Translations under genes and position numbers: made by a program | The notes under the pieces: generated by a model | Told to the model about the DNA's origin: nothing | Seen by the model: only the letters and a program-made list of their open reading frames with translations | Database searches by the model: none | In this document: piece after piece, positions 6,739 through 55,818 of the stretch | Layout: each line of letters begins with the position of its first letter | How positions within the stretch are numbered: the stretch's first letter is position 1 | Source of the DNA: Hadesarchaea archaeon | Lineage (GTDB): Archaea > Hadarchaeota > Hadarchaeia > Hadarchaeales > Hadarchaeaceae | Reading direction: 5' to 3' | NCBI GenBank assembly: GCA_029259175.1 | Contig: JAPDJH010000015.1 | Span: 1 to 64,000, forward strand | DNA: 64,000 nt

Positions 6739-6875
6739 ATTTATCGTAGTTCTCCACAACTCAGGGGAGTCTACGATTTATCATAGTCAGCACAGCTCCG
6801 CCTGAAATCTATCCTCAGCTCTACGATTTATCGTAGTCTCGAAACCCGATCCCGGAACTCTACGATTTGTCGTAG
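6739..6875. repeat. Series of CTACGATTTATCGTAG palindromes
   Basis: A 16-bp near-perfect palindrome (7-bp arms CTACGAT/ATCGTAG around TT) occurs at 6771-6786 (one mismatch), 6821-6836 (perfect) and 6860-6875 (one mismatch). An 11-bp right-hand part is at 6739-6749. The flanking bases are also shared: CT before and TC after. Spacers are 21, 34 and 23 bp and unrelated in sequence. The series lies just upstream of the trm5 promoter. It could be a set of operators, a structured RNA, or remains of a small mobile repeat; I cannot choose between them. Confidence 0.75.
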
Positions 6876-7247
6876 TCCTCCTTGCACTCGATCCTGGCCT
6901 CCTCCGCATCGAATACACTGACGTCCCGAACCCCGAAACGCCTGAGCATCCCCACGAGCGCACCACCTCGTCCTCCGCACACAGAACAACTGACCGCTGA
7001 ACCTACTCCCCGCCGACCGCCTTCAACTTCTCATAGTGCCACCCCGAAAGCCTCCTAGCGTGCTGATCAAACACGACCAAACGCATGCCCTCTGCTAGCC
7101 ATTGCGCTTCGGCATTCCGCGCGGAATTCTCATCGCCCGAATCGACCACTGGGCGTCTCCGCTGGGCCGAGCTGGTGCCCGCCTATCTGTTTCTAGCGTC
7201 CCCCGCCAAAGCCGTCAGCTCCGCCCTCAGCCCGTCCCTGCGATGAA
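6876..7247. other. Non-coding gap with possible degraded gene fragments
   Basis: No full-length gene is supported here. On the minus strand, one frame reads a protein-like tail ending in a TAG at 7003-7005 (possible ATG at 7086, 27 codons, containing LVVFDQHARRLSGWHYEKL). A second frame runs 6982-6860 (40 codons, ending inside a palindrome copy, containing FGVRDVSVFDAEEARIECKE). Both have amino-acid composition closer to real protein than to noise, no Shine-Dalgarno, and no family I recognise. They may be pieces of one frameshifted gene. Confidence 0.3.
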
Positions 7248-7255
7248 TTTTATAT
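7248..7255 (+). promoter_or_regulatory. TATA box for the transcarbamylase gene
   Basis: TTTTATAT lies 34-41 bp before the ATG at 7289 in an otherwise GC-rich stretch. A strong Shine-Dalgarno GAGGAGGTGA (7275-7284) follows. Confidence 0.55.
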
Positions 7256-7288
7256 GAACGCTCGTAATTGGAAAGAGGAGGTGAAGAA

Positions 7289-8317
7289 ATGGTGGACCTG
7301 TACGGGCGCGACTTCATCACCACCCAGGAGTGGACCATCGAAGAGCTGGAGTACACCATGGAAGTGGCACGAAAACTGCGCGAAACCGTGAAACGGGGCG
7401 ACAGACCAAAACCGGTGCTCGACCGCCGCAACTTCTTCATGGTGTTCTACGCCCCCTCGACTCGCACGCGCGGCGCCTTCGAAGCGGCCACCGCGATCCT
7501 CGGAGGCCACCCGGCGTTCATCGATGTGAGCACCACCCGCATCAAGGCGGGGGAGGCTGTGAAGGACGTGGCAGCCATGTATGACTCTTACGCCGACGGG
7601 ATCGGTGTCCGAATTCTCGACAAAGCCATCGATTTCGTGTACGGCGAAGGACACCGCGTGATCCGCGAATTCGCCGATACGGCAAAGGTGCCCGTCATCA
7701 ACATGGCGTGCTGCACCTACCACCCGACACAGGGGCTCGGAGACATGATCACCATTCAAGACCTCCTCGGCGACGTCAAGGGCAAGAAGTACACCATCAC
7801 GTGGGCCTACTCCAACCAGCCGCGCGGACGCTGCAGTATTCAAGAGGAAGTCCTCATCGCCACCCGCTTCGGCATGGACGTCACGCTCGCTCACCCAGAG
7901 GGCTTCGATCTCGACCCGCAAATCATTGAAGCGGCAAGGAAAAACGCCAAGGAATCCGGCGGAAGCTTCGAGATCGTTCACGACTTTGAAGAAGGACTGA
8001 AAGACGCCAACGTGGTGTTCCCGCGCAACTGGGCGAGTTCTGAGTTCCTGCGAGTCGGAGCGTCCAAATTCGGAGTCGAGCGAGAGGTCCAGACCTATCA
8101 GCGCTACAAGCACTGGTGCCTCGACCAGCACCACGTAAACGACCTAATGGCGAAACCGGCTTACGTCACCCACGTGCTCCCAGTGCTCCGCGGATACGAG
8201 GCCACGGACGCGGTGATGGATGGCCCCAACTCGGCAATATACAAGCAAGCCGACGACAACTTCTACGCCAAGATGGCCACCCTCGCCGTGACCATGTCCA
8301 AAGAGCTCCCAGTGTAA
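7289..8317 (+). CDS. YgeW-like transcarbamylase, substrate unknown
   Basis: 342 residues of the aspartate/ornithine carbamoyltransferase superfamily. The carbamoyl-phosphate loop PSTRTR is present near residue 57 and HPTQGLGD near residue 145. The segment YTITWAYSNQP followed by RFGMDVTLAHPEGFDL recalls bacterial YgeW, the transcarbamylase of unassigned substrate, rather than OTCase or ATCase. The C-terminal HCLP motif that closes over the second substrate is changed to HVLPVLRG near residue 295. A true argF lies at 47874, so this is a paralogue with another acceptor. The ATG at 7289 is chosen for the GAGGAGGTGA before it; a TTG at 7268 lies inside the leader. The gene stands alone, with the CPBP gene five bases downstream. 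Confidence 0.75.
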   Translation: MVDLYGRDFITTQEWTIEELEYTMEVARKLRETVKRGDRPKPVLDRRNFFMVFYAPSTRTRGAFEAATAILGGHPAFIDVSTTRIKAGEAVKDVAAMYDSYADGIGVRILDKAIDFVYGEGHRVIREFADTAKVPVINMACCTYHPTQGLGDMITIQDLLGDVKGKKYTITWAYSNQPRGRCSIQEEVLIATRFGMDVTLAHPEGFDLDPQIIEAARKNAKESGGSFEIVHDFEEGLKDANVVFPRNWASSEFLRVGASKFGVEREVQTYQRYKHWCLDQHHVNDLMAKPAYVTHVLPVLRGYEATDAVMDGPNSAIYKQADDNFYAKMATLAVTMSKELPV

Positions 8318-40131: not shown

Positions 40132-43100
40132 ATGTCGACGCTGGCAGACAAGATATTCGAAGAGTTCAGGGAACACAGTGTTAGCGAGTTCTTTAGAAAA
40201 AATGCAGCCATGTTAGGATATACGGGTAAAATTCGCTCGCTTACCACCATCATCCATGAGGGGGTCACTAACTCCATCGATGCTGCGGAAGAAGCGGGAA
40301 TTCTCCCACGCGTCTATGTAGCTATAAGAAATGCGAGCACCAGCCCGGAGCACTACCGGGTGATAATCGAAGACAACGCAACGGGGATTCCGGAGGAACA
40401 CATAGCCAGTGTCTTCGGGAAGATGCTGGCCGGGACCAAGCTCCACCGCTACATGCAGCAGCGTGGCCAACAGGGGATTGGAGTCTGTATGACTGGAGAT
40501 ACAAAAGTTCCAATGGCAGATGGTTCGATAAAACGGATAGATGAAATAGTTTCCAATGATCTGAGAGGCAAACAAGTTTTGACATTAGGGCCAGATTTCA
40601 AACTCCGGCCGTCCAAAATTATAAAATGTTGGAAGATTCCGGCCCCACAGCATTTAGTTGAGCTAAAACTTCTTACGGGAAAAACGATTAAGCTCACCCC
40701 TGAAAACCCCGTTCTCGTTTTTCGTGATGGGCAGGCTGAGTGGGTAAAAGCGAAAGACATCAAAAAAGGGATGTTCGTTGGGATTTCAAAACGTCTGCCA
40801 GCGAGCTCGTCAAAGATACCTCGAGTTTTAGATATTATAAGGAAGGAAGGGCTACGCGTAGACGCGCCTGAGACGACTTCAAAATTCATAGATATTCTCA
40901 TAAAAAAACACGGAAGTCTAAAAAAGGTGTCCAAACAAATCGGAATTTCTTACGATCGGCTCAGAAATTGGACGAGACGGATGCCGAATGGAAATCCACG
41001 CGGTAGGCCAACCGTCAACGAATTCCAGATTCTTGCCAAGGCTGCCGGAGAAAATGATAGTTCAAGGCTGATAACTCGAGTGGGTAGAAATGGCTTTTAC
41101 GTAAACATCCCCCAGACGGTAAACGCAGATTTGATGTGGTTTGTGGGAGCGATGGCTGGCGATGGACATATCGGAAGCCCTGAGAACAAAAGGTGGGGTC
41201 ATGCTCTGTTTTTCCACAACAAAGATTTGGAATTATTAAATCGCGCTGAGCGCATCCTCAAGAATGTTTTCGGTTTGAGAGTAAAGCGGTATTTCGATGT
41301 GAGAAGGGGAACTTTCACATTGGAGACGTCTTCTTCGGTGGTGGCGGAAATCCTACGATATTTTGGGGTTCCCGCGGGCAACAAGACACTGACGTTGAGT
41401 ATACCCGATTCAGTATCTCGACTCCCAAACGATTTGCTCGCGGCATACTTGCGTGGTTTCTTCGACACCGATGGAGGGCTTTCTCGCCGATATCGCGAAA
41501 TCACTTTTGGTTTGATAAACAAGGAAGTGGTGGAATGCATGGCCCTTCTGCTCTTAAGATTTGGTATTTTCTCTAGGTTCAGAGTGAACAAAGAAGGCCA
41601 CAAAGTAAGTTATCAATTGGTTGTGAGCGGCAAGGAGAATCTCGTTCGTTTTGCAGAGGTTATCGGGTTTACCTCAGCGAAAAAGCAAAAGCAACTCCAA
41701 GAGTTCATCCAATCCTTTAAAGGTTCCTCCCAAAATGCATTTTTCTTCCCAGGCATACAAGCCCAGATAAGACGCCTATATCGAGCCCGCAATATCCCGT
41801 ACCATAAAATTCCATCTCGGGTGTGGAGTTCCTTCTATGCTCAGGGAATGACCCCCGGTTCTCTCACCGCGGCTTTGGACGTGCTTGAGGATCTCAACTC
41901 CTGGACTGATGTGGAATATCTGAAGGCGTTGGCTGAGGGAGATGTAGCTTGGGTAAGGGTAGTGGAGTCCAAGCTTGTTCCCGCCCAAGTGGAATATGTT
42001 TATGATTTGACTGTCGAGAACTCGCACAACTTCGTGGCAAATGGGATAATAGTCCACAATAGTGGCGCCACTATGTTTGCCCAGATGACCAGCGGAAAAC
42101 CAGTCAAAGTGACTACTTCCACCGGGAGCGGAGAAATAGTGGAAGCCGATGTGATGATCGATGTCACCAAAAACGAAGGGAAGATAGTGAGCATCAAGAA
42201 GAGGAAGGGGAGGTGGCGTGGTACCCGGGTCGAATTCGAGGTCAAGGAAGTCGTATACGTGCGCTCCCGCTACGGGCCCTTCAACTATCTGCGGATGACC
42301 GCCATAGCAAATCCGCACGTTTACATTCGATTTGACGAGCCGGATGGAGTAGTCACCATCTTCGAAAACGCCGTCACAGAGGTTCCCAAGCCGCCCAAAC
42401 CAATGAAGCCGCATCCTTGGGGAATGATGGCTGACGACTTGCTAAGACTAGCCAAACAGAGTAAAGCAAAAAAAATTACTTCTTTTCTGGCTTCGGATCT
42501 AGCCCGAGTCAGCTCCGCAAAAGCAAAACAGGTTTGCAAGCTGGCCGGAGTGGCTGAGAACAGATCACCTGGTGAACTAACGTGGGAGGAGGCTGAACGG
42601 TTGATAAAAGCTTTCAAGCAGGTAAAACTGCTTGCCCCTCCATCCGAAGGTTTGCGACCCATCGGAGCTGAAAACATCATAAGCGGGATGCGTCAGGTCT
42701 TGAAACCGGAATTCGTGCATGCCATTACACGTCCGCCCAAGGTATACAGAGGAGGGGTGCCATTCTTGGTAGAAGTGGGAATTGCGTACGGAGGAGAGGC
42801 CGGAAAAAGAACCGCCGAAGAAGTTGGGGAGGAGCAAGGTATCGAGCTAATTCGCTTTGCCAATCGTGCTCCGCTCATCTTCGACCAAGGAGCTTGTGCC
42901 ATAACAACGGCGATGCGCTCAGTCGATTGGAGGCGATACGGTATCGACATAGCAAGCTCGCCGGTGACCCTCTTCGTCAATGTGGTTTCCGCTTATGTGC
43001 CCTACACGTCAGCAGGAAAACAATCCATCGCAGAGGAGCCAGAAATAGTGGCTGAACTCAGAGCAGCCATGATGGAAGTGGCCCGAGAACTAAGACTCTT

Positions 43101-43284
43101 CCTAAATCGGAAGATAAGAATAAAGGAGAAAAAAGAGCGGGCGAAAGTGTTCGAGCGCTATCTCCCAATAATTGCGCAGAAAGCTGCTCGACTGGCGAGG
43201 ACCCGGCCGCCCGAAATAGGTAAGCTTCTCAGAAAAATTGCGGGTGAGTTGAATGACGCAGGTGAAGGGAAGCAAGAAAGCTAG
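40132..43284 (+). CDS. top6B: DNA topoisomerase VI subunit B precursor with intein
   Basis: 1050 codons encoding a host protein of 525 residues interrupted by a 525-residue intein (residues 119-643). The host part has the GHKL ATPase motifs: [24 protein letters not shown] and RGQQGIG, then H2TH and transducer domains. Subunit B binds ATP, dimerises and opens or closes the gate for the Spo11-like A subunit, relaxing supercoils and decatenating. The insertion falls exactly in the glycine-rich G-x-G ATP-lid (GQQGIGV|SGATMF), so the enzyme should be inactive until spliced. The A gene overlaps by 32 bp. Cytoplasmic, acting on DNA. Confidence 0.95.
40486..42060 (+). mobile_element. Intein with DOD homing endonuclease in top6B
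   Basis: 525 codons. It begins with cysteine ([13 protein letters not shown]) and ends VHN, followed by serine of the host. Block B reads TPENPV, with asparagine (intein residue 74) where TxxH histidine is usual. A helix-turn-helix-like stretch ([17 protein letters not shown], about host-precursor residues 264-280) precedes the endonuclease. LAGLIDADG-type blocks are intact: [13 protein letters not shown] (near 336-348) and [14 protein letters not shown] (near 437-450), each with its catalytic aspartate. Block F is [15 protein letters not shown]. Both splicing ends are complete, so splicing is likely though the block B change is unusual. The endonuclease would spread the element to intein-free top6B alleles. 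Confidence 0.93.
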
Positions 43285-44394: not shown

Positions 44395-45747
44395 ATGGAA
44401 AAACCCCCCGTGGTAATTTTAGCCGCGGGAGAAGGAAGGCGATTATCGCTAGGAAAGGGTGTGCCGAAACCGCTTACCAAATTCGCCGGTTTGACTTTGC
44501 TAGAACGGGCTGTCCGCATGTGGCATAAGTTTGGATTCACCAAGTTCTACGTTGTGGTAGGACACGCAAAAGAAGAGGTAACCGAGGGCGCAAAGAAAAT
44601 TGCTGCCAAATTGGGAGTGGAAATTATTCCGGTGGAAAACAATGAGTGGCCTATGGGGAACGGGACCTCAGTTCTCGCAGCTTCACAGTTGATTGATCGC
44701 CCGTTTTTTCTTCAGATGGTAGATCATGTCTTTGATGCTAAAACATTGCAGGAGTTCCTCAAAAAAACAGAAAACGCTGAAATAACAGTCCTAGCTATTG
44801 ATCCGCGTGTAGATTCTGTCTTGGATATCGAAGACGCCACAAAAGTCAAGCTTGAAGGAGAGCACATTTTGGACATCGGGAAGTCATTGCGGGAGTACGA
44901 TGCTATCGACATGGGGCTGTTCTTCTGTACTCCTGAAATTTTCGAAAGTCTACGGAAAAGCAGAGAACAAAATGGAGGAAAATTATCTGACGGAGTAAGA
45001 TGGTTGGCCAACAATCGGAGGATTAAAGCCGTTGTGTTGAGCACGGGTCAATGGTTCGATATTGACAAACCAGAGATTCTGAGAGCAGCTGAGCAGGATC
45101 TCTTTGAAAGAATCAAAAAATCTGAGGACGGGCTCGTATCCAAGCACCTCAATCGCCAAATCTCGTTTCGGATTTCAAAACGATTGTCCTCTCTTCTCTC
45201 GCCTAATCCCACTACCGGGATCGCGTTCTGTGTAGCATTGCTGGGTGCGCTTTTGTTCACAAGCGGTTCGTATCTGGCCACGGCACTAGCAGGGGTGTTG
45301 ATCCAGCTTTCGTCCATACTGGATGGCTGCGACGGTGAAATTGCTCGGATACGGCTCGAGGCCTCGGCGCGCGGCGCATGGTTTGACACGGTGTTAGACC
45401 GGTATGCAGATGCACTCATCTCCCTTGCCGTTACGTACAACATGTGGATGCAGATGCGAACTGTGTGGGTTTGGCTGGGGGGATTTCTGGCCCTTTTCGC
45501 TTTTGTTGGGGTGAGCTACATCAAAAAGGAGTTCAAGCTCCGCACAGGGCAAGAAGTAAAATCATCGGTGTTCGAAAAACTCACCAAGCGGGATCTAAGA
45601 TTGTTCGGAATATTCGTTGGAGCCATAGCAGGCTTGCCCTACCATGCTATGTTAGTCATAGCATTCATTACTCATCTCTGGATGCTCCACTTCATCTGGA
45701 CGGAAATGAGAGAGAAGTTTAAGAAAGGTCAAGAGAAATCATTCTGA
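44395..45747 (+). CDS. Bifunctional IPCT/DIPP synthase (di-myo-inositol phosphate synthesis)
   Basis: 450 residues. The N-terminal half is a nucleotidyltransferase (ILAAGEGRRLSLGKGVPKPL) making CDP-inositol from CTP and inositol 1-phosphate. The C-terminal half is a membrane CDP-alcohol phosphotransferase with the motif DGCDGEIARIRL, AWFDTVLDRYAD (about 311-335), joining CDP-inositol to inositol 1-phosphate. The product, after dephosphorylation, is di-myo-inositol phosphate, a solute restricted to hyperthermophiles. GAGGTGG precedes the ATG at 44395. Its TGA shares bases with the argB ATG (TGATG). The inositol-1-phosphate synthase and phosphatase are not in this window. Confidence 0.9.
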   Translation: MEKPPVVILAAGEGRRLSLGKGVPKPLTKFAGLTLLERAVRMWHKFGFTKFYVVVGHAKEEVTEGAKKIAAKLGVEIIPVENNEWPMGNGTSVLAASQLIDRPFFLQMVDHVFDAKTLQEFLKKTENAEITVLAIDPRVDSVLDIEDATKVKLEGEHILDIGKSLREYDAIDMGLFFCTPEIFESLRKSREQNGGKLSDGVRWLANNRRIKAVVLSTGQWFDIDKPEILRAAEQDLFERIKKSEDGLVSKHLNRQISFRISKRLSSLLSPNPTTGIAFCVALLGALLFTSGSYLATALAGVLIQLSSILDGCDGEIARIRLEASARGAWFDTVLDRYADALISLAVTYNMWMQMRTVWVWLGGFLALFAFVGVSYIKKEFKLRTGQEVKSSVFEKLTKRDLRLFGIFVGAIAGLPYHAMLVIAFITHLWMLHFIWTEMREKFKKGQEKSF

Positions 45748-46643
45748 TGCAAGAAAGGACAGAAGCGCTGATAGAAGCGCTGATGGAAGCCCGGCCCTAC
45801 ATCCAAGAATTTCACGGAAAAACGTTTGTGATCAAGATAGGGGGCCGGATTCTAGAAAACGAGAAAAAACTCGATTCGCTGGTAAGTGACATCGTCCTGC
45901 TCCATCTGCTGGGGATGAAAACCGTGATCGTTCATGGCGGTGGCCCCGAGATAAGCGAGGAAATGCGAAAAATGGGGATCAAGCCAAAATTCGTGGAGGG
46001 TCTTCGGGTGACCGATGAACAGACCATGGAGATCCTCTACGAGCAGCTCGCAGGCAAACTCAACAAACAAATCGTTCGCATGATCAATTTCCATGGAGGG
46101 AAAGCATGGGGCGCCACAGGGATGGACGGAAAGCTCATCAGAGCGCGCAAGATAACTTACAAGACGACAACCAGCAAGGGCAAGGAAGTAGAGATAGACT
46201 TGGGCTTGGTGGGAGAGGTGGAAAAAATCGACCCTTCGGGCATCCACAGTCTGCTCAAAAGCGGATGCATACCTGTAATCGCACCCATCGGAGTGGATAG
46301 TGAGGGGCGCAGCCTCAATATAAATGCAGACACGGTAGCCGCAGAGCTTGCCATCGCGTTGAAAGCGAAAAAGCTCATCTTGCTCACCGACGTTATAGGG
46401 ATATTGCGGGATCCAAACGATCCCAAAACCCTCATTTCTACTCTCACGGTGGATGAAGCTCAAGAACTGGTTAAATCGGGTGTGATCAAAAAAGGAATGA
46501 TCCCAAAAGTGGAAGCTTGTATCCGTGCGATCCAAGGAGGAGTAGACCGCTGCCACATCCTGAGCGGCATAATGGATCACGCACTGCTCATAGAGATTCT
46601 GACAAATGCTGGTGCCGGAACAATGATCGTGAGAGGAAAATGA
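45747..46643 (+). CDS. argB: Acetylglutamate kinase
   Basis: 298 residues. Second step of arginine synthesis: phosphorylates N-acetylglutamate. FVIKIGGRIL, VIVHGGGPEISEEM, GLRVTDEQTMEIL, the NINADTVAAELA segment and KGMIPKVEACIRAIQGGV are diagnostic. In the LysW-dependent branch LysZ looks similar; I see no lysW nearby, so ArgB is preferred. Coupled by TGATG to DIPPS upstream and by ATGA to argD downstream. Confidence 0.9.
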   Translation: MQERTEALIEALMEARPYIQEFHGKTFVIKIGGRILENEKKLDSLVSDIVLLHLLGMKTVIVHGGGPEISEEMRKMGIKPKFVEGLRVTDEQTMEILYEQLAGKLNKQIVRMINFHGGKAWGATGMDGKLIRARKITYKTTTSKGKEVEIDLGLVGEVEKIDPSGIHSLLKSGCIPVIAPIGVDSEGRSLNINADTVAAELAIALKAKKLILLTDVIGILRDPNDPKTLISTLTVDEAQELVKSGVIKKGMIPKVEACIRAIQGGVDRCHILSGIMDHALLIEILTNAGAGTMIVRGK

Positions 46644-47827
46644 TGAAGCGGGTGGAAGAGTTATTCGAAGAACACGTTGCAAACACGTACAAGCGCCAAC
46701 CGCTGGCTCTGGTTTCGGGACAGGGAATGATAGTCGAGGATGTGCGAGGAAAGCGCTACATTGACTTCGTTGGAGGAATAGCTGTATGCGCTTTGGGACA
46801 CTCGCACCCAGCAGTTGTTAGGGCGATTTCGGAACAAGCACGAAAGCTCATGCACGTATCTAATCTATATTATATCCCACAGCAAGGCCAGCTCGCAGAA
46901 CTGTTGGCCCAGATCACGCCTAAAACCATCGAGAAATTCTTCTTTTGCAACTCGGGGGCTGAAGCCAATGAGGGGGCTCTAAAGCTGGCTATAAAACACA
47001 CGAAGAAAAAGCGGATTATCGTTATGGAAGGTTCGTTTCACGGGCGAACAGCTCTCACCGTCGGGGCCACGTGGAAAAGCTCCTACCGAAGCCCGTTTAC
47101 CGCACTCATCCCGCCTGTGTTCGATTTCGTCCCCTATGGGAATCTGAGCAGTGTGGAAATGGCGATAAGGGAAGACACAGCTGCGATATTGGTGGAGCCC
47201 ATTCAGGGAGAGGGAGGGGTACGTATTCCTCCAGATGACTTTTTACCCGGACTGAGAAAACTGTGTGACGAACATGGGCTCTTGCTCATCATCGACGAAA
47301 TCCAGACGGGAATGGGAAGAACCGGACGTTGGTTTGCTTGCGAACATTGGAAAACTAATCCAGACATACTTACCGTAGCAAAGGCGCTCGGAAATGGTTT
47401 TCCAATCGGTTGCTTGGGGGCCGCAGCAGAGATTATGAGCTCGTTTACACCTGGAGATCACGCGTCCACTTTTGGGGGAAATCCGCTGGCTTGCGCAGCA
47501 GCCATGGCGACCATTAAAACCATGCGAAGACTGAAGCTCCCTCAGCGAGCCGCGAGAACAGGTGAATACTTCCTCAAACGATTGAAGGAACTGGAAAGCA
47601 CACACTCGTGTGTGGCTGAAGCGAGAGGAAAGGGTCTTCTGCTGGGTCTCGAGCTAAACTCAAGCGAGACTGCCAAGAAGACCGTAGAACTCATGAGGGA
47701 GAGAGGATTTCTCATCAATTTGACGGCGGATCGGGTGCTTCGCTTCACCCCACCACTTATCGTGGAACGATATCACATCGATGCCTTAGTAGAGGCTCTC
47801 GCTCGCATTCTCAAAGAACTCGAATAA
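46640..47827 (+). CDS. argD: Acetylornithine aminotransferase
   Basis: 395 residues, PLP fold type I. Converts acetylglutamate semialdehyde to acetylornithine. FCNSGAEANEGALKLA, GSFHGRT, the PLP aspartate in IIDEIQTGMGRTG and the Schiff-base lysine in VAKALGNGFPIG are present. ATG at 46640 overlaps the argB stop. Some archaeal homologues also serve lysine synthesis. Confidence 0.92.
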   Translation: MMKRVEELFEEHVANTYKRQPLALVSGQGMIVEDVRGKRYIDFVGGIAVCALGHSHPAVVRAISEQARKLMHVSNLYYIPQQGQLAELLAQITPKTIEKFFFCNSGAEANEGALKLAIKHTKKKRIIVMEGSFHGRTALTVGATWKSSYRSPFTALIPPVFDFVPYGNLSSVEMAIREDTAAILVEPIQGEGGVRIPPDDFLPGLRKLCDEHGLLLIIDEIQTGMGRTGRWFACEHWKTNPDILTVAKALGNGFPIGCLGAAAEIMSSFTPGDHASTFGGNPLACAAAMATIKTMRRLKLPQRAARTGEYFLKRLKELESTHSCVAEARGKGLLLGLELNSSETAKKTVELMRERGFLINLTADRVLRFTPPLIVERYHIDALVEALARILKELE

Positions 47828-47833
47828 AAAACA

Positions 47834-47841
47834 TTTTAAAA
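47834..47841 (+). promoter_or_regulatory. TATA box for argF
   Basis: TTTTAAAA, six bases after the argD stop and 33-40 bp before the TTG start of argF. It suggests argF has its own promoter. Confidence 0.5.
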
Positions 47842-47873
47842 ATGAGTAGTGGGGATATGTGGAGGTGACTGAT

Positions 47874-48791
47874 TTGAACAAACGAGACTTGTTGGGAATG
47901 GGAGACCTCGAGCCAGCGGAGGTTACCCGGCTGATCCAAGCAGCGGAACGATATAAGCGAAATCGTGGTGCAAAAAGCAACGAACTCTCTAACAAGACCA
48001 TTGCTCTCATCTTCGAAAAACCGTCAACTCGAACAAGGGTATCGTTCGAAGTTGCGATAAGAGAGATGGGAGGAGAGTCCCTCTTTTTGAGCTCCCAGGA
48101 ACTCCAGTTGGCCAGAGGTGAAACAATCGCCGATACCGCACGAACTTTGAGCCGGTATGTTCACGGACTGGTGGCAAGAGTTAGATCGCATGACTCTCTG
48201 GTGGAGCTCGCGCGTTACAGTTCTGTTCCGGTAATCAACGCGCTCAGTCCGCTTGAGCATCCATGCCAGACACTAGCAGATCTGCTGACCATCTGGGAGA
48301 AGAAAAAACGGCTGCAAGGAGTGAAGGTCGCATGGGTTGGAGATGGGAATAACGTGTGTAACTCGCTGGCTCTGGGATGCACGATGGTCGGCGCAGACAT
48401 CAGCCTAGCGATTCCAAAGGGGTACGAACCACCACGCGAGATTTTAGAAAAAGCTCAGGCGTACGCATCAAAGTCCGGAAGCAAGATCACGCTCACCTCC
48501 AATCCCGAGCAAGCGGTCGCAGATGCGGACGTGGTCTACACGGATGTGTTTGTCTCAATGGGACAGGAGAGCGAAAGAGAGAAAAGGATGAAAGACTTCG
48601 ATGGATTTCAGGTCACGGGCGAACTCATGAAGCTGGCTAAGCCGAACGCGATCTTTATGCATTGCCTGCCGGCTCACCGCGGGGAAGAAGTCACGGAAGA
48701 AGTCATCGATGGGCCCCAATCGGTGGTGTTCGATCAGGCCGAAAACAGGCTTCACGCTCAGAAAGCGGTTTTGGCGTTTTTTGTCGGGTGA
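47874..48791 (+). CDS. argF: Ornithine carbamoyltransferase
   Basis: 305 residues. Makes citrulline from ornithine and carbamoyl phosphate. All standard motifs are intact: EKPSTRTRVSFEVA, HPCQTLADLLT, DGNNVCNSL (ornithine side), SMGQE and the closing HCLPAHRG. The TTG at 47874 is chosen for GGAGGTGA five bases before it; a GTG at 47859 precedes the ribosome site and is unlikely. Contrast with the divergent paralogue at 7289. Confidence 0.93.
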   Translation: MNKRDLLGMGDLEPAEVTRLIQAAERYKRNRGAKSNELSNKTIALIFEKPSTRTRVSFEVAIREMGGESLFLSSQELQLARGETIADTARTLSRYVHGLVARVRSHDSLVELARYSSVPVINALSPLEHPCQTLADLLTIWEKKKRLQGVKVAWVGDGNNVCNSLALGCTMVGADISLAIPKGYEPPREILEKAQAYASKSGSKITLTSNPEQAVADADVVYTDVFVSMGQESEREKRMKDFDGFQVTGELMKLAKPNAIFMHCLPAHRGEEVTEEVIDGPQSVVFDQAENRLHAQKAVLAFFVG

Positions 48792-48793
48792 AA

Positions 48794-48801
48794 TTTTATA
48801 A
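48794..48801 (+). promoter_or_regulatory. TATA box for the carbamate kinase gene
   Basis: TTTTATAA immediately after the argF stop, 31-38 bp before the ATG at 48832. Confidence 0.5.
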
Positions 48802-48831
48802 GCGGGCAGATGGTTGGTTTGAAGGGATAGG

Positions 48832-49797
48832 ATGAGATTGGTTGTCGCATTGGGAGGCAACGCCATCAAGCAGGCGCACGAAAAAGGAACAACCCTGGAG
48901 CAATTTCTAAACTGCAAACGAACTGCCCGTCTGCTTGCCAAGGTCGTTCAGCGAATGTCACCAAACGACCGATTGGTGATCACCCATGGGAACGGGCCCC
49001 AAGTGGGGAATCTGGCAGTGCAGCAAGACATGGCCAAGGAGGTGGTCCCCCCTCAAGATCTGGATGTGCTAGGGGCGATGACCCAAGGGCAAATAGGGTA
49101 TATGTTGCAGCAAATGCTGGACAACCAGCTGAGAGATCTCGGGTTGAAAGTACCCGTGGTAGCCATTATCAACCGTGTGCAGGTCAGCCGTGATGACCCA
49201 GAGTTTCAGGATGAAAACGCGTCCAAACCGGTGGGAAACTTCCTTACTGAGGAGGAAGTGAGGGAACTGAAGAAAAAGTATCCCAACTACATTTACAAGA
49301 AAGTGAAGCCTGGAGAAGGAAGAGTGTGGAGAAGAGTAGTTCCGTCTCCCGATCCCATCGCAAACGTAGAGGCAGAGGTGATAAAACGAATGGTGGATGC
49401 GGGAATCATCGTTATCGCTTCGGGTGGTGGTGGCATACCGGTAGTGCTGGATCCGGATGGACACCACCGAGGAGTGGAGGCCGTAATAGACAAGGATCTA
49501 GCGGGGGAGAAGCTGGCAGAGGTGATAAACGCCGACACCTTCCTCATCCTCACCGATGTGGAAAAGGTGAAGCTAAACTTCGGAAAACCTGATGAAAAAC
49601 CCATAGACCGAATGACGGTTTCAGAAGCAAAGCGGTACCTGAAGGAGGGCCACTTCCTCCCGGGAAGCATGGGGCCGAAGGTGAAGGCCTGTATCAGGTT
49701 CATTGAGTGGGGAGGAAAGCGCGCCATTATATCCTCGCTAGACAAGGTTTTGGAGGCCCTCGAGGGAAAGACGGGAACTGAAGTAGTACCAGACTGA
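48832..49797 (+). CDS. arcC: Carbamate kinase (or carbamate-kinase-like CP synthetase)
   Basis: 321 residues of the amino-acid kinase fold. VVALGGNAI, ITHGNGPQVGNLA, VIASGGGGIPV and DKDLAGEKLAEVINAD are diagnostic. It interconverts ATP plus carbamate and ADP plus carbamoyl phosphate; in hyperthermophilic archaea it can run toward carbamoyl phosphate. Sitting next to argF it may feed that enzyme or, in reverse, draw ATP from citrulline. The glutamine-dependent CarAB genes are not in this window. Confidence 0.9.
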   Translation: MRLVVALGGNAIKQAHEKGTTLEQFLNCKRTARLLAKVVQRMSPNDRLVITHGNGPQVGNLAVQQDMAKEVVPPQDLDVLGAMTQGQIGYMLQQMLDNQLRDLGLKVPVVAIINRVQVSRDDPEFQDENASKPVGNFLTEEEVRELKKKYPNYIYKKVKPGEGRVWRRVVPSPDPIANVEAEVIKRMVDAGIIVIASGGGGIPVVLDPDGHHRGVEAVIDKDLAGEKLAEVINADTFLILTDVEKVKLNFGKPDEKPIDRMTVSEAKRYLKEGHFLPGSMGPKVKACIRFIEWGGKRAIISSLDKVLEALEGKTGTEVVPD

Positions 49798-53171: not shown

Positions 53172-54041
53172 ATGGATGCTCCCATGAAAGTCATCCCTGA
53201 AATCGATCGAAAAGCTGGAAAACTAAATCTGAGCCCGGAAGAGCTCGCCCAGATGATAGACCACACTCAGCTTTCACCATACAAACAACAGCGCTCGCTT
53301 GAAAAACTCTGTAATGAAGCCAAAGCGTACAATTTCGGGTTCGTGTGTGTGCACCCTTATTGGACGCGTTTTTGTGTTGAGCAGCTGAAGGGGACTGACA
53401 TCCAAGTGGCAACTGTCGTGGGCTTTCCAATGGGACAAAACACACCAGACGCAAAAGCGATGGAAACAAAGAAGGCGATCGAAGACGGGGCAACCGAAAT
53501 CGACATGGTAATGAACGTCTCGGCCTTCAAAGACAAGCGATACGATTTTGTAAAAGAAGACATTCAAGCAGTTGTGGAAGCCGCCCAAGGCAACGTGGTG
53601 AAAGTCATCTTGGAAACAGGTTATTTGACCTACGAAGAAATCGTCACGGCGTGTAAGCTGGTCAAGGAAGCGGGAGCACACTTCGTCAAGACATCTACCG
53701 GATATGGGCCGATGGGCGCCACCATTCCGCATGTGTATCTCATGCGCCAAACCGTAGGTTCGGACTACGGGGTAAAAGCAGCGGGCGGTATCTACAATTT
53801 CCGGGATGCGCTTCGGATGATTGCAGCTGGAGCAAACCGGATAGGAACGAGCGCTGGCGTGAAAATCATGGACAGCTACGCGTGGGCGCGCCACACCGAC
53901 TGGCACATCGAAGAAATCCCATGCAGGCTATGCCCGAGTCGAAAGGCCAACTTTGACAAGATGCCGAAAGCCGTGTTCGCATACTATAAATCCAAGTGTG
54001 TCGATTGCCCGTATAGGGAATTCAACAGGTTCTACGAGTGA
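53172..54041 (+). CDS. deoC: Deoxyribose-phosphate aldolase with cysteine-rich tail
   Basis: 289 residues. Splits 2-deoxyribose 5-phosphate into acetaldehyde and glyceraldehyde 3-phosphate. TIM-barrel motifs: MIDHTQLSP, VVGFPMGQN, EIDMVMNVSAFK, the Schiff-base lysine in FVKTSTGYG (near 173) and VKAAGGI (near 201). Typical enzymes end near residue 240-250; here a tail carries CRLC (251-254) and CVDC (276-279), a likely zinc or Fe-S site. ATG at 53172 or MKVIPE at 53184. The stop lies inside the Shine-Dalgarno of the aldehyde oxidoreductase gene. Confidence 0.92.
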   Translation: MDAPMKVIPEIDRKAGKLNLSPEELAQMIDHTQLSPYKQQRSLEKLCNEAKAYNFGFVCVHPYWTRFCVEQLKGTDIQVATVVGFPMGQNTPDAKAMETKKAIEDGATEIDMVMNVSAFKDKRYDFVKEDIQAVVEAAQGNVVKVILETGYLTYEEIVTACKLVKEAGAHFVKTSTGYGPMGATIPHVYLMRQTVGSDYGVKAAGGIYNFRDALRMIAAGANRIGTSAGVKIMDSYAWARHTDWHIEEIPCRLCPSRKANFDKMPKAVFAYYKSKCVDCPYREFNRFYE

Positions 54042-54051
54042 GGTGTACGAA

Positions 54052-55818
54052 ATGGAAGGAAAACTCCTGAGAATAAATCTAACGACCAACAAGATTTCGG
54101 AAGAAGAAATCAAGCCGGAAATCTTGGAAATGTTCGTTGGAGGACGCGGGCTCGGAGTAAAAATTCTCTCGGATGAAGTTGACCCCACGATCGACCCGCT
54201 TTCTGAGAAAAACAAGCTGATCTTTGCTGTTGGTCCGCTCACCGGTACTGCCGCCCCGACTTCTGGACGGTACGAAGTGATCTTCAAATCCCCACTTACG
54301 GGAACGATCTGTAATTCTAACTCCGGAGGATACTTTGCCCCCATGATCCGAAAGCTCGGATATCTCGCAATCGTGATTGAAGGCAAAAGCAAAGATCCCG
54401 TGTATGTATGGGCGAGCGAGAATGGAGTGGAAATTCGGGACGCTTCCAAGCTGTGGGGCAAGGACACTGAAGAAACAACGAAAGCTTTGCTGAAGGAAAC
54501 CGACGAGCGCGCAAGGGTCGCATGTATCGGACCAGCTGGAGAACGACTGGTACGGATGGCTGCAATAATCAACGACGAACACCGGGCAGCGGGACGCGGT
54601 GGCGGTGGAGCGGTAATGGGCTCCAAGCGGCTCAAAGCTCTCGTCTTGTATGGTAAACAAAAACCCAAAGTGGCCGACAACCAGCGATTCATGAAAATCG
54701 TGAAAGGGTGCCTGATGACTTTGGACAAAAATCCTGTGACTAAGGATTCTCTCCGAATATTTGGGACCAATGTGCTCGTGGACATCATAAACGAGATCGG
54801 GGCGTTTCCCACTCGAAACTTCCAGGAGGGTTATTTTGAGGAAGCTGACGGAATCAGTGGACCCAAATATCTTGAACGAATCTTCGTCAAGGCATACAAC
54901 TGCGCCGGATGCCCCATAGGTTGTGGTAGGTTGACCAAAGCAAATGGGGAGGAGGGAGGGGGGCCAGAGTACGAAACTGTATGGGCGTTTGGTGCTGCAT
55001 GCGGGAACAGCAATATTGAAGATATTGCGAAGGCGAACTACATGGCAAACCGATTGGGGCTCGACACGATCTCCACCGGAGTAACCATCGCATGCGCCAT
55101 GGAAATGAGCGAGCGCGGGATTTTGAAAGAGTCGGTTCGTTTTGGAGATTCCGAACAAATTATCGAACTCGTGCGAAAAATCGGCTACCGCGAAGGAATC
55201 GGTGATGATCTCGCTGAGGGGTCGAAGCGGTTTGCAGAAAAACACGGATGTCCGGAGCTAGCCATGCAGATAAAAGGTTTAGAAATACCAGCGTACGATC
55301 CGCGCGGAGTTCAGGGGCACGCACTCGGATATGCGACTTCGAACAGAGGAGGATGCCATCTGCGTGCGTACATGATTGCTCCCGAAGTGTTGGGAATCCC
55401 AGTAATGGTCGATCGCTTCAAGCCAGAAGGAAAAGCCTCAATCGTAAAGCTGCTTCAGGACGTCTCGGCCGCAGTGGATACGCTCGTTCTGTGCCGGTTC
55501 ACCCAGTTCGCTCTCCGGATAGACCAATACGCCGGTTTGCTTTCCGCAGCAGTTGGGCGAACCTACACTGAGGACGACTTCAAACGAGTCGGTGAGCGCG
55601 TGTGGAACTTGGAACGTCTGTTCAATGTCAAAGCAGGGTTTTCACGTAAAGACGACACATTACCACCACGTTTTCTGCAAGAGCCCCTGAAAGAGGGAAA
55701 CTCACGAGGCAGGGTGGTTGAACTCGACAAAATGTTGCCCGAATATTATAAGATACGAGGATGGGACGAGGAAGGCAGGCCCACAGCTGAAAAACTCAAA
55801 GAGCTAGGGCTTTGCTGA
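54052..55818 (+). CDS. Aldehyde:ferredoxin oxidoreductase, tungsten-type
   Basis: 588 residues. Oxidises aldehydes to acids and reduces ferredoxin, using a bis-pterin tungsten site and one 4Fe-4S cluster. LLRINLTTNKI, GGRGLGVKIL, the RAAGRGGGGAVMGSK pterin loop, cluster cysteines C284, C287, C291 (CAGCPIGC) and C481 (LVLCRF) are all present. GAGGTG six bases before the ATG at 54052. Paired with deoC, its likely substrate is acetaldehyde from deoxyribose phosphate; glyceraldehyde-type substrates remain possible. Ends 15 bp into the converging coiled-coil gene. Confidence 0.93.
   Translation: MEGKLLRINLTTNKISEEEIKPEILEMFVGGRGLGVKILSDEVDPTIDPLSEKNKLIFAVGPLTGTAAPTSGRYEVIFKSPLTGTICNSNSGGYFAPMIRKLGYLAIVIEGKSKDPVYVWASENGVEIRDASKLWGKDTEETTKALLKETDERARVACIGPAGERLVRMAAIINDEHRAAGRGGGGAVMGSKRLKALVLYGKQKPKVADNQRFMKIVKGCLMTLDKNPVTKDSLRIFGTNVLVDIINEIGAFPTRNFQEGYFEEADGISGPKYLERIFVKAYNCAGCPIGCGRLTKANGEEGGGPEYETVWAFGAACGNSNIEDIAKANYMANRLGLDTISTGVTIACAMEMSERGILKESVRFGDSEQIIELVRKIGYREGIGDDLAEGSKRFAEKHGCPELAMQIKGLEIPAYDPRGVQGHALGYATSNRGGCHLRAYMIAPEVLGIPVMVDRFKPEGKASIVKLLQDVSAAVDTLVLCRFTQFALRIDQYAGLLSAAVGRTYTEDDFKRVGERVWNLERLFNVKAGFSRKDDTLPPRFLQEPLKEGNSRGRVVELDKMLPEYYKIRGWDEEGRPTAEKLKELGLC

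Follow-up and report, generated by a model that had tools for sequence, protein, structure and literature searches.

A knotted-type transcarbamylase with an HVLP motif as a candidate enzyme of reductive purine degradation in archaea

TC-A, the gene described here, encodes a knotted-type transcarbamylase to which we assign, with moderate confidence drawn from sequence and gene context, a catabolic role in an archaeal pathway of reductive purine (urate) degradation; its substrate would most likely be a ureido intermediate of that pathway, used toward carbamoyl phosphate. The gene lies in a stretch of 64,000 nucleotides (the window, G000:C7:1-64000) from a 1.3-Mb genome, 91% complete, whose host is, in our reading, a member of the Hadarchaeota; the nearest named relatives by the TC-A gene are Hadesarchaea/Hadarchaeum records. 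TC-A belongs to TC-AB, a strongly supported, widespread and mostly archaeal clade of its own among the knotted-type transcarbamylases.

Sequence and predicted fold of TC-A

The features of the window that bear on TC-A are as follows.

7248-7255, + strand: putative TATA-like box TTTTATAT, 33 nt 5' of the TC-A ATG, read from the sequence
7275-7284, + strand: putative Shine-Dalgarno-like GAGGAGGTGA, 4 nt 5' of the TC-A ATG, read from the sequence
7289-8317, + strand: TC-A, knotted-type transcarbamylase with HVLP motif; open frame from ATG to stop, 342 aa, identified with Pfam and NCBIfam
7538-7540, + strand: codon of TC-A R84, the 80s-loop Arg (55/57 core-clade rows), where YgeW has Q98
7823-7825, + strand: codon of TC-A R179 in the proline-rich loop (57/57 core-clade rows), in the slot of YgeW K203
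8024-8026, + strand: codon of TC-A R246 (57/57 core-clade rows), in the slot of AOTC K252 and YgeW K270
8171-8182, + strand: TC-A HVLP motif, residues 295-298, from the sequence and the clade alignment
47859-48791, + strand: argF, an ordinary ornithine transcarbamylase, placed among archaeal OTCs by the tree; outside the proposed pathway
48832-49797, + strand: carbamate kinase adjoining argF (TIGR00746, 380.8 bits, above the cut-off of 358; 43% identity to E. coli YqeA)

All marks of the transcarbamylase superfamily were found in TC-A, namely SxRT, HPxQ, HxLP and the two Pfam domains, both far above cut-off (119 and 100 bits). The preliminary description of this DNA had pointed out HVLP instead of HCLP, which we recovered in the intact frame, and had called the carbamoyl phosphate (CP) motifs intact, a statement that needs an exception: SxRT (57-60), HPTQ (145-148) and the beta-4 Arg (108) are all kept, but the C-terminal basic residue of the CP site (R319 in OTC, R322 in AOTC and K363 in YgeW; PMC4581275, Table 1) is Asn in TC-A and L, N, G or R across the clade.

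A search of NCBIfam returned 17 matches at E <= 0.001, all of them transcarbamylase models and all below cut-off. N-acetylornithine carbamoyltransferase (AOTC) scored best (222 bits; cut-off 288), the OTC model reached 190 bits (cut-off 281), and the two YgeW models reached 162 bits (NF005538, cut-off 453) and 152 bits (TIGR03316, cut-off 500); phmmer gave 160 bits to AOTC and 63 bits to SOTC (1js1). An AlphaFold model, computed from an alignment (A3) of 39 sequences that excluded L194, L235 and L247, had a mean pLDDT of 96.5. The best VIA-align hit was AOTCase 3m5c (Z 43.9, rmsd 1.6 over 315), ahead of the Enterococcus faecalis YgeW homologue 2yfk (Z 42.7, rmsd 1.8 over 325), OTC 1a1s (Z 41.4) and E. 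coli YgeW 3q98 (Z 39.6), the gaps in Z being small. The earlier suggestion that the body resembles YgeW covers the case in part: in the profile scores, AOTC stands above both OTC and YgeW. The proline-rich loop, a hallmark of knotted transcarbamylases (PMC4581275), is present as WAYSNQPRGR. By sequence and predicted fold, TC-A is a knotted-type transcarbamylase, structurally nearest to AOTCase and YgeW.

An OTC identity was rejected by score, residues and tree: TC-A has FPRNW where the window OTC has YTDVF, has no DxxxSMG loop, scores 190 bits against the cut-off of 281 and falls outside the OTC clade. The normal argF that had been reported elsewhere in the window is indeed there, next to the carbamate kinase; argB-like, argD-like, argF and carbamate kinase genes stand consecutively at 45747-49797, the first two being what we take to be argB and argD.

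An arginine-related anabolic role, as an N-acyl-ornithine transcarbamylase of the AOTCase/SOTCase type, would agree with AOTC being both the top NCBIfam model and the top fold match, yet we consider it highly improbable. The proline-rich loop that TC-A shares with AOTCase is common to knotted enzymes. The score of 222 bits lies under the AOTC cut-off of 288; the acceptor residues E144 and K252 of AOTC are replaced by Ala (56/57) and Arg (57/57) in the core of the TC-AB clade, and the 80s loop of TC-A has no Trp; and the window already holds argB-like and argD-like genes beside its ordinary argF. Nor were arginine genes found near TC-AB genes in other genomes: none of six arginine-cluster proteins encoded at locus L056 was matched at >=150 bits among the 80 best loci (of 209 relatives). 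An AOTC identity was rejected on the score, the two acceptor slots and the 80s loop.

TC-A resembles YgeW (YTCase) of the E. coli reductive urate pathway in fold and at 32% sequence identity, and TC-AB genes of other archaea share with ygeW the neighbors SsnA, HyuA, carbamate kinase and a Mo hydroxylase. Unlike YgeW, TC-A has 342 rather than 396 residues, 162 bits against 453, HVLP for HCLP, and Ala, Arg, Arg and Arg for Q160, Q98, K203 and K270, and it goes with a gene set without YgeY. A YgeW identity was rejected on the two model scores (162 and 152 bits, below 453 and 500) and on the Ala and Arg in the Q160 and K270 slots.

The TC-AB clade and its acceptor-site residues

We collected 149 transcarbamylase hits, which left 139 sequences, including 4 references, once near-identical and short ones had been dropped. 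Thinning at 72% identity gave a careful tree of 43 rows with one YgeW, one AOTC and no SOTC row, and in this tree TC-A fell in a clade of 23 rows (support 100/99) that holds no YgeW, AOTC, OTC or TC-C, the last being a second knotted-type transcarbamylase of the same genome that the preliminary description had missed. Placement inside a group of known substrate was not seen among the groups in the tree, SOTC having no row there. The rows of the clade carry the labels Hadarchaeota, Bathyarchaeota, Thermoproteota, Nitrososphaerota, Hermod-, Sif- and Thorarchaeota, Chloroflexota and Cryosericota, with single rows labeled Microcaldota and Methanobacteriota. In a wider FastTree run, the core TC-AB clade comprised 57 rows and excluded those of Thorarchaeota, Chloroflexota and Cryosericota; its support in the careful tree was 93/86 (not starred). 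A close kinship between TC-AB and YgeW was rejected, as YgeW, AOTC, group D, TC-C and TC-AB are left unordered among the knotted enzymes in the careful tree, where the branch to E. coli YgeW is long (1.96).

The core motif is HV(L/M)P: the position of the HCLP Cys is Val in 53 of the 55 core rows that reach it and Ser in the other 2, while 2 further rows end earlier. Different residues occupy this position in the Thorarchaeota, Chloroflexota and Cryosericota rows, which belong to the 23-row clade but lie outside the core. HVLP is therefore a trait of the core clade rather than a one-off of this gene. Across the 57 core rows, R84 is kept in 55, A140 in 56 (with 1 Gly), and R179 and R246 in all; the YgeW counterparts of R84, A140, R179, R246 and V296 are Q98, Q160, K203, K270 and C330. 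Q160 and K270 of YgeW have been proposed as carboxylate anchors (PMC4581275). The two basic slots near the YgeW acceptor site, K203 and K270, remain basic, as Arg, in 57/57 core rows. Judged by these alignments, the core TC-AB clade has an altered acceptor pocket, and because this pocket is unlike that of YgeW and one basic residue of the CP site is lost, the substrate may differ as well.

Gene neighborhoods of TC-AB in other archaea

Neighborhoods were examined in the 80 best of 209 named relatives, taking flanks of at most 10 kb on either side (43/80 loci were at least 15 kb long), and partners were counted at >=150 bits, with the E. coli uricolytic cluster (L178) as comparison. In 6/80 loci (L181, L187, L188, L194, L195 and L256), the transcarbamylase label was lost to greedy ORF choice; these loci were still counted. 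Partners among these best 80 of 209 were PALP (31 loci), carbamate kinase (28), SsnA-like (25), UacX-like (16), XdhA-like (11) and HyuA-like (6) proteins, and 31/80 loci held at least two transcarbamylases. At least one of SsnA, UacX, PALP and HyuA was present in 37/80 loci compared to 0/10 OTC-centered archaeal loci (Fisher p 0.005, to be taken as a guide only, since the loci are related and the rows not independent). Carbamate kinase lay near OTC in 3 of the 10 OTC-centered controls, a small set, which makes it weak evidence when found alone. Purine catabolism, which had been listed for assays in the preliminary description, is what these neighborhoods point to.

The most compact arrangement occurs in eight Desulfurococcales loci, where TC-B, TC-C, carbamate kinase, SsnA, UacX and PALP genes follow one another on the same strand, separated by -4 to 221 nt; contig ends interrupt two further loci of this kind. 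HyuA is absent from these operons; HyuA-like matches occur in 19/19 genomes with operons of the Desulfurococcales type, but dihydroorotases match too. Loci from Hecatella, Caldarchaeum/Pelearchaeum (Aigarchaeota-type), Hermodarchaeota and Cryosericum have partly overlapping sets of partners in other gene orders, which favors a functional link over inheritance as a single block. SsnA was the top NCBIfam model for the proteins of the window's own genome, Desulfurococcales and Hermodarchaeota (402, 355 and 368 bits; cut-off 444), and the UacX-like protein of L217 has a Cys-rich, ferredoxin-like C-terminal tail and matches PreA over its length, below cut-off.

None of the 10 loci labeled Hadarchaeota among the best 80 had SsnA, UacX, PALP, HyuA or carbamate kinase in its flanks, although one held an adenine deaminase and one an XdhA-like gene; the same partners were missing from all 12 Thorarchaeota loci of that set. 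That Hadarchaeota loci are mostly without nearby partner genes slightly lowers our confidence in the purine pathway.

Several further arrangements were seen in these loci. A luciferase-family gene lies near TC-AB in L209, L211, L219, L227 and L233, and that of L219, which matches F420-dependent reductases, may be likened to the F420 variant suggested for Chloroflexota (PMC12507026). A third knotted group, TC-E, is represented by G005:C86:3152-4114 (L055) and in loci L244, L250, L255 and L258; in Cryosericum/Caldisericota loci the order is TC-E, carbamate kinase and a TC-B-like gene with PALP nearby, a bacterial two-transcarbamylase set. Another knotted group, TC-D, was found in L046 (G009) and L047 (G013), with a dihydropyrimidinase-like gene directly after it, and L046 also has two DHO_dh-like genes.

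Candidate partners of TC-A in the host genome and its family

TC-A is solitary in the window, flanked by a TYW2-like methyltransferase gene and a CAAX-protease gene, and its candidate pathway partners are either 40 kb distant or on different contigs. Homologues of Mo hydroxylase, UacX, SsnA, HyuA and carbamate kinase, the reductive urate gene set, were all found in the genome, scattered, with SsnA and UacX below curated cut-offs. On contig C3, an SsnA gene (70% identity to that of the related genome G007) is followed on the same strand by a UacX-like gene, whose nearest NCBIfam model is PreA (235 bits, under the cut-off of 335), and a HyuA gene (58%) is divergent. Two Mo-hydroxylase genes are known by their PF01315 domain alone, and TC-C (G000:C5:60070-61095) stands beside a PALP gene. 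Identities to the E. coli uricolytic enzymes were 34% for SsnA, 30% for HyuA, 43% for carbamate kinase (YqeA), and 32% and 34% for TC-A and TC-C with YgeW.

Some close orthologues in the family have purine genes closer at hand than TC-A does. In G007 (76% identity to TC-A), SsnA-like, HyuA-like and carbamate kinase genes lie within about 8 kb, and L181, presumably the named copy of this locus, includes a UacX-like gene; G007/L181 is the only Hadarchaeota locus with these partners. In G005 (75%), an adenine deaminase adjoins the orthologue (TIGR01178, 557 bits, above the cut-off of 472), together with nearby transporter genes for which NCBIfam named just the ATPase family and which we assume to encode a Bmp-type purine/nucleoside transporter. 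In G010 (74%), a PF01315 Mo-hydroxylase gene is about 9 kb away.

Across the family, which comprises 22 genomes of 56-95% completeness, carbamate kinase was present in 10/12 genomes with TC-AB versus 2/10 without it (p 0.008). The association was modest for TC-C (8/12 versus 2/10; p 0.04) and weak for PF01315 (8/12 versus 3/10; p 0.20). PF01315 is missing from 11/22 family genomes, and its protein could be another hydroxylase. SsnA (at least 59% identity) and HyuA (at least 48%) were found in 20/22 and 21/22 family genomes, compared to 12/22 for TC-AB, so both can occur without it. The same-genus genome G001 (95% complete) has no TC-AB, TC-C, carbamate kinase or PF01315 and keeps a diverged SsnA/HyuA pair (36% and 44%), and G018 (88% complete) has SsnA and HyuA with neither transcarbamylase nor carbamate kinase.

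These data bear on whether TC-A might instead perform a stand-alone carbamoylation in its host, unrelated to the operons of other archaea. Its solitary position here and in most Hadarchaeota loci would fit, as would the company it keeps in several of them, a TYW2-like methyltransferase gene and what is presumably a radical SAM gene. Against this stand the same-family orthologues at 74-76% identity that sit with purine-catabolic genes, the way carbamate kinase tracks TC-AB in the family, and the presence of the rest of the gene set in the host genome, and we consider a stand-alone role unlikely.

Other features of the window may be recorded here. A near-palindromic repeat, CTACGATTTATCGTAG, occurs at 6739-6877, 5' of the TYW2-like gene, as three full copies and one half copy; the window has 4 matches at <=2 mismatches, one being the reverse strand of another, and 0/100 shuffles reached 4. 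The repeats are possibly an operator. At 40132-43284, a large intein that includes a LAGLIDADG domain interrupts the gene for a topoisomerase VI B subunit. At 53172-55818, a DeoC/LacD-type aldolase gene is directly followed by one for an aldehyde ferredoxin oxidoreductase (AOR). AOR-family genes occur in 12/80 loci of TC-AB relatives and also in 3/10 OTC-centered control loci; they raise the idea that a tungsten enzyme may replace the molybdenum urate reductase.

A second transcarbamylase, YgeY and the PALP

TC-C is 37% identical to TC-A, has neighborhoods in common with it and forms a separate clade in the careful tree. At the five positions that in TC-AB are A, R, R, V and variable, it retains E, K, K, C and R (37/37). 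A TC-C profile, which was built from some of the sequences then searched, detected the protein (>560 bits) in 38 of the 50 genomes searched, all from TC-AB relatives, with a truncated copy in a 39th (G094) and none in 11.

The hydrolase YgeY belongs to the M20 family, and 20/22 family genomes, including that of the window, gave no M20 match at E <= 1e-10, while controls matched in 14/14. Among genomes with the operon, the YgeY model was above cut-off in 0/19, compared to 1/14 controls; weaker M20 matches in 17 of the 19 make this absence suggestive only. In one locus of the best 80 (L206, genome G092, of completeness not established), TC-AB overlaps by 4 bp a YgeY-like M20 gene (107 bits, 32%; the stretch has an N run), and no TC-C was found in that genome. 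Replacement of YgeY by TC-C would lead one to expect just such a combination of M20 present and TC-C not found, seen here in a single case.

For the PALP proteins, 65 hits were reduced to 60, of which 58 entered a quick tree made without bootstraps and carrying a long-branch warning. In it, 28/35 PALP rows near a transcarbamylase fell in a 31-row clade (SH-aLRT 97), separate from a group of 18 proteins (99) that are presumably the family's canonical threonine synthases. The remaining 3 of the 31 rows (L158, L176 and L177), labeled far because their loci are short, are less than 3 kb from TC-C by coordinates; 5 other transcarbamylase-near rows (Cryosericum/Caldisericota) form their own clade, and 2 (L201 and L203) are distant. 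Linked and canonical PALPs alike score as threonine synthase by model, and a BLAST comparison of the linked archaeal PALP with YgeX gave nothing at E <= 1e-3.

A proposed route from purines to carbamoyl phosphate

In the reductive purine pathway that we favor for TC-A, purine bases would be converted to urate/xanthine, the UacX/PreA-like flavoprotein would dearomatize the purine, and SsnA and HyuA would open the ring to give 2,3-diureidopropionate. TC-A with phosphate would then remove one ureido group, leaving an amine and forming carbamoyl phosphate, from which carbamate kinase would generate ATP, and a PLP enzyme would convert diaminopropionate to pyruvate. We infer the direction of the reaction, its substrate, the ureido group that is cut, and the roles of the UacX-like protein, the Mo hydroxylase and the PLP enzyme; those of PALP and UacX are suggested by gene context alone. 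By model score, the UacX-like proteins are PreA/PyrD and the PALPs threonine synthase, which counts against the pathway.

As a tentative extension, which may well prove wrong, TC-AB and TC-C would act one after the other on 2,3-diureidopropionate, each cleaving a different ureido group and yielding carbamoyl phosphate for carbamate kinase. TC-C would then replace YgeY, the threonine-synthase-like PALP would be the diaminopropionate lyase, and many archaea would save both groups as ATP.

The PreA score of the UacX-like protein would also fit pyrimidine catabolism, in which TC-A would phosphorolyze N-carbamoyl-beta-alanine, formed by a PreA-like dehydrogenase and a dihydropyrimidinase, to beta-alanine and carbamoyl phosphate. 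The 235-bit match to PreA (cut-off 335) and the position of the HyuA-like protein within the dihydropyrimidinase/allantoinase/dihydroorotase group speak for it; however, SsnA, adenine deaminase and PALP have no known place there and a second transcarbamylase would be superfluous, and we regard it as rather unlikely. HyuA-like proteins also score as allantoinase, which would suit another ureido pathway, either an oxidative allantoin branch (ureidoglycine, oxalurate) or the salvage of hydantoins and ureido amino acids. A ureidoglycine transcarbamylase does exist, but it has been placed in the unknotted ATCase branch (PMC4581275), and the UacX-like partner and the ferredoxin-type tail seen in L217 suggest a reductive route, so that this option seems quite unlikely.

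Relation to known systems and significance

The preliminary description had called YgeW a transcarbamylase with no assigned acceptor, which is superseded: a 2025 assignment places YgeW in reductive urate degradation, where, in E. coli, YgeW with HyuA and phosphate takes ureidomethyl-hydantoin to albizziin (PMC12507026). According to a commentary, two recent studies agree on the enzyme and differ on which ureido group is cut, leaving the cleavage sequence open (PMC12990295). The C. difficile-type uricolytic cluster has the hydrolase UacY in place of YgeW and carbamate kinase (PMC12507026). The archaeal sets resemble that cluster in that a UacX-like protein of the DHO_dh family adjoins SsnA; unlike it, they keep transcarbamylases and carbamate kinase.

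The same 2025 commentary describes the anaerobic urate pathway as restricted to selected anaerobic bacteria (PMC12990295), and the main text of PMC12507026 never uses the word archaea. Work on nitrifiers, archaea among them, treats other purine products (PMC12625717), and a passage of PMC10547907 holds nothing on an archaeal reductive urate pathway; judged by titles and the openings of abstracts, no paper on such a pathway was found in the open-licence literature.

If our reading is correct, the reductive urate pathway would extend to several archaeal phyla, the TC-AB clade would gain a role, and a protein now called threonine synthase would probably be re-annotated. Separate enzymes would then handle the two ureido groups, which would make the regiochemistry testable one enzyme at a time. 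Anaerobic archaea would, moreover, gain energy from purines, possibly up to 2 ATP from the carbamoyl groups alone.
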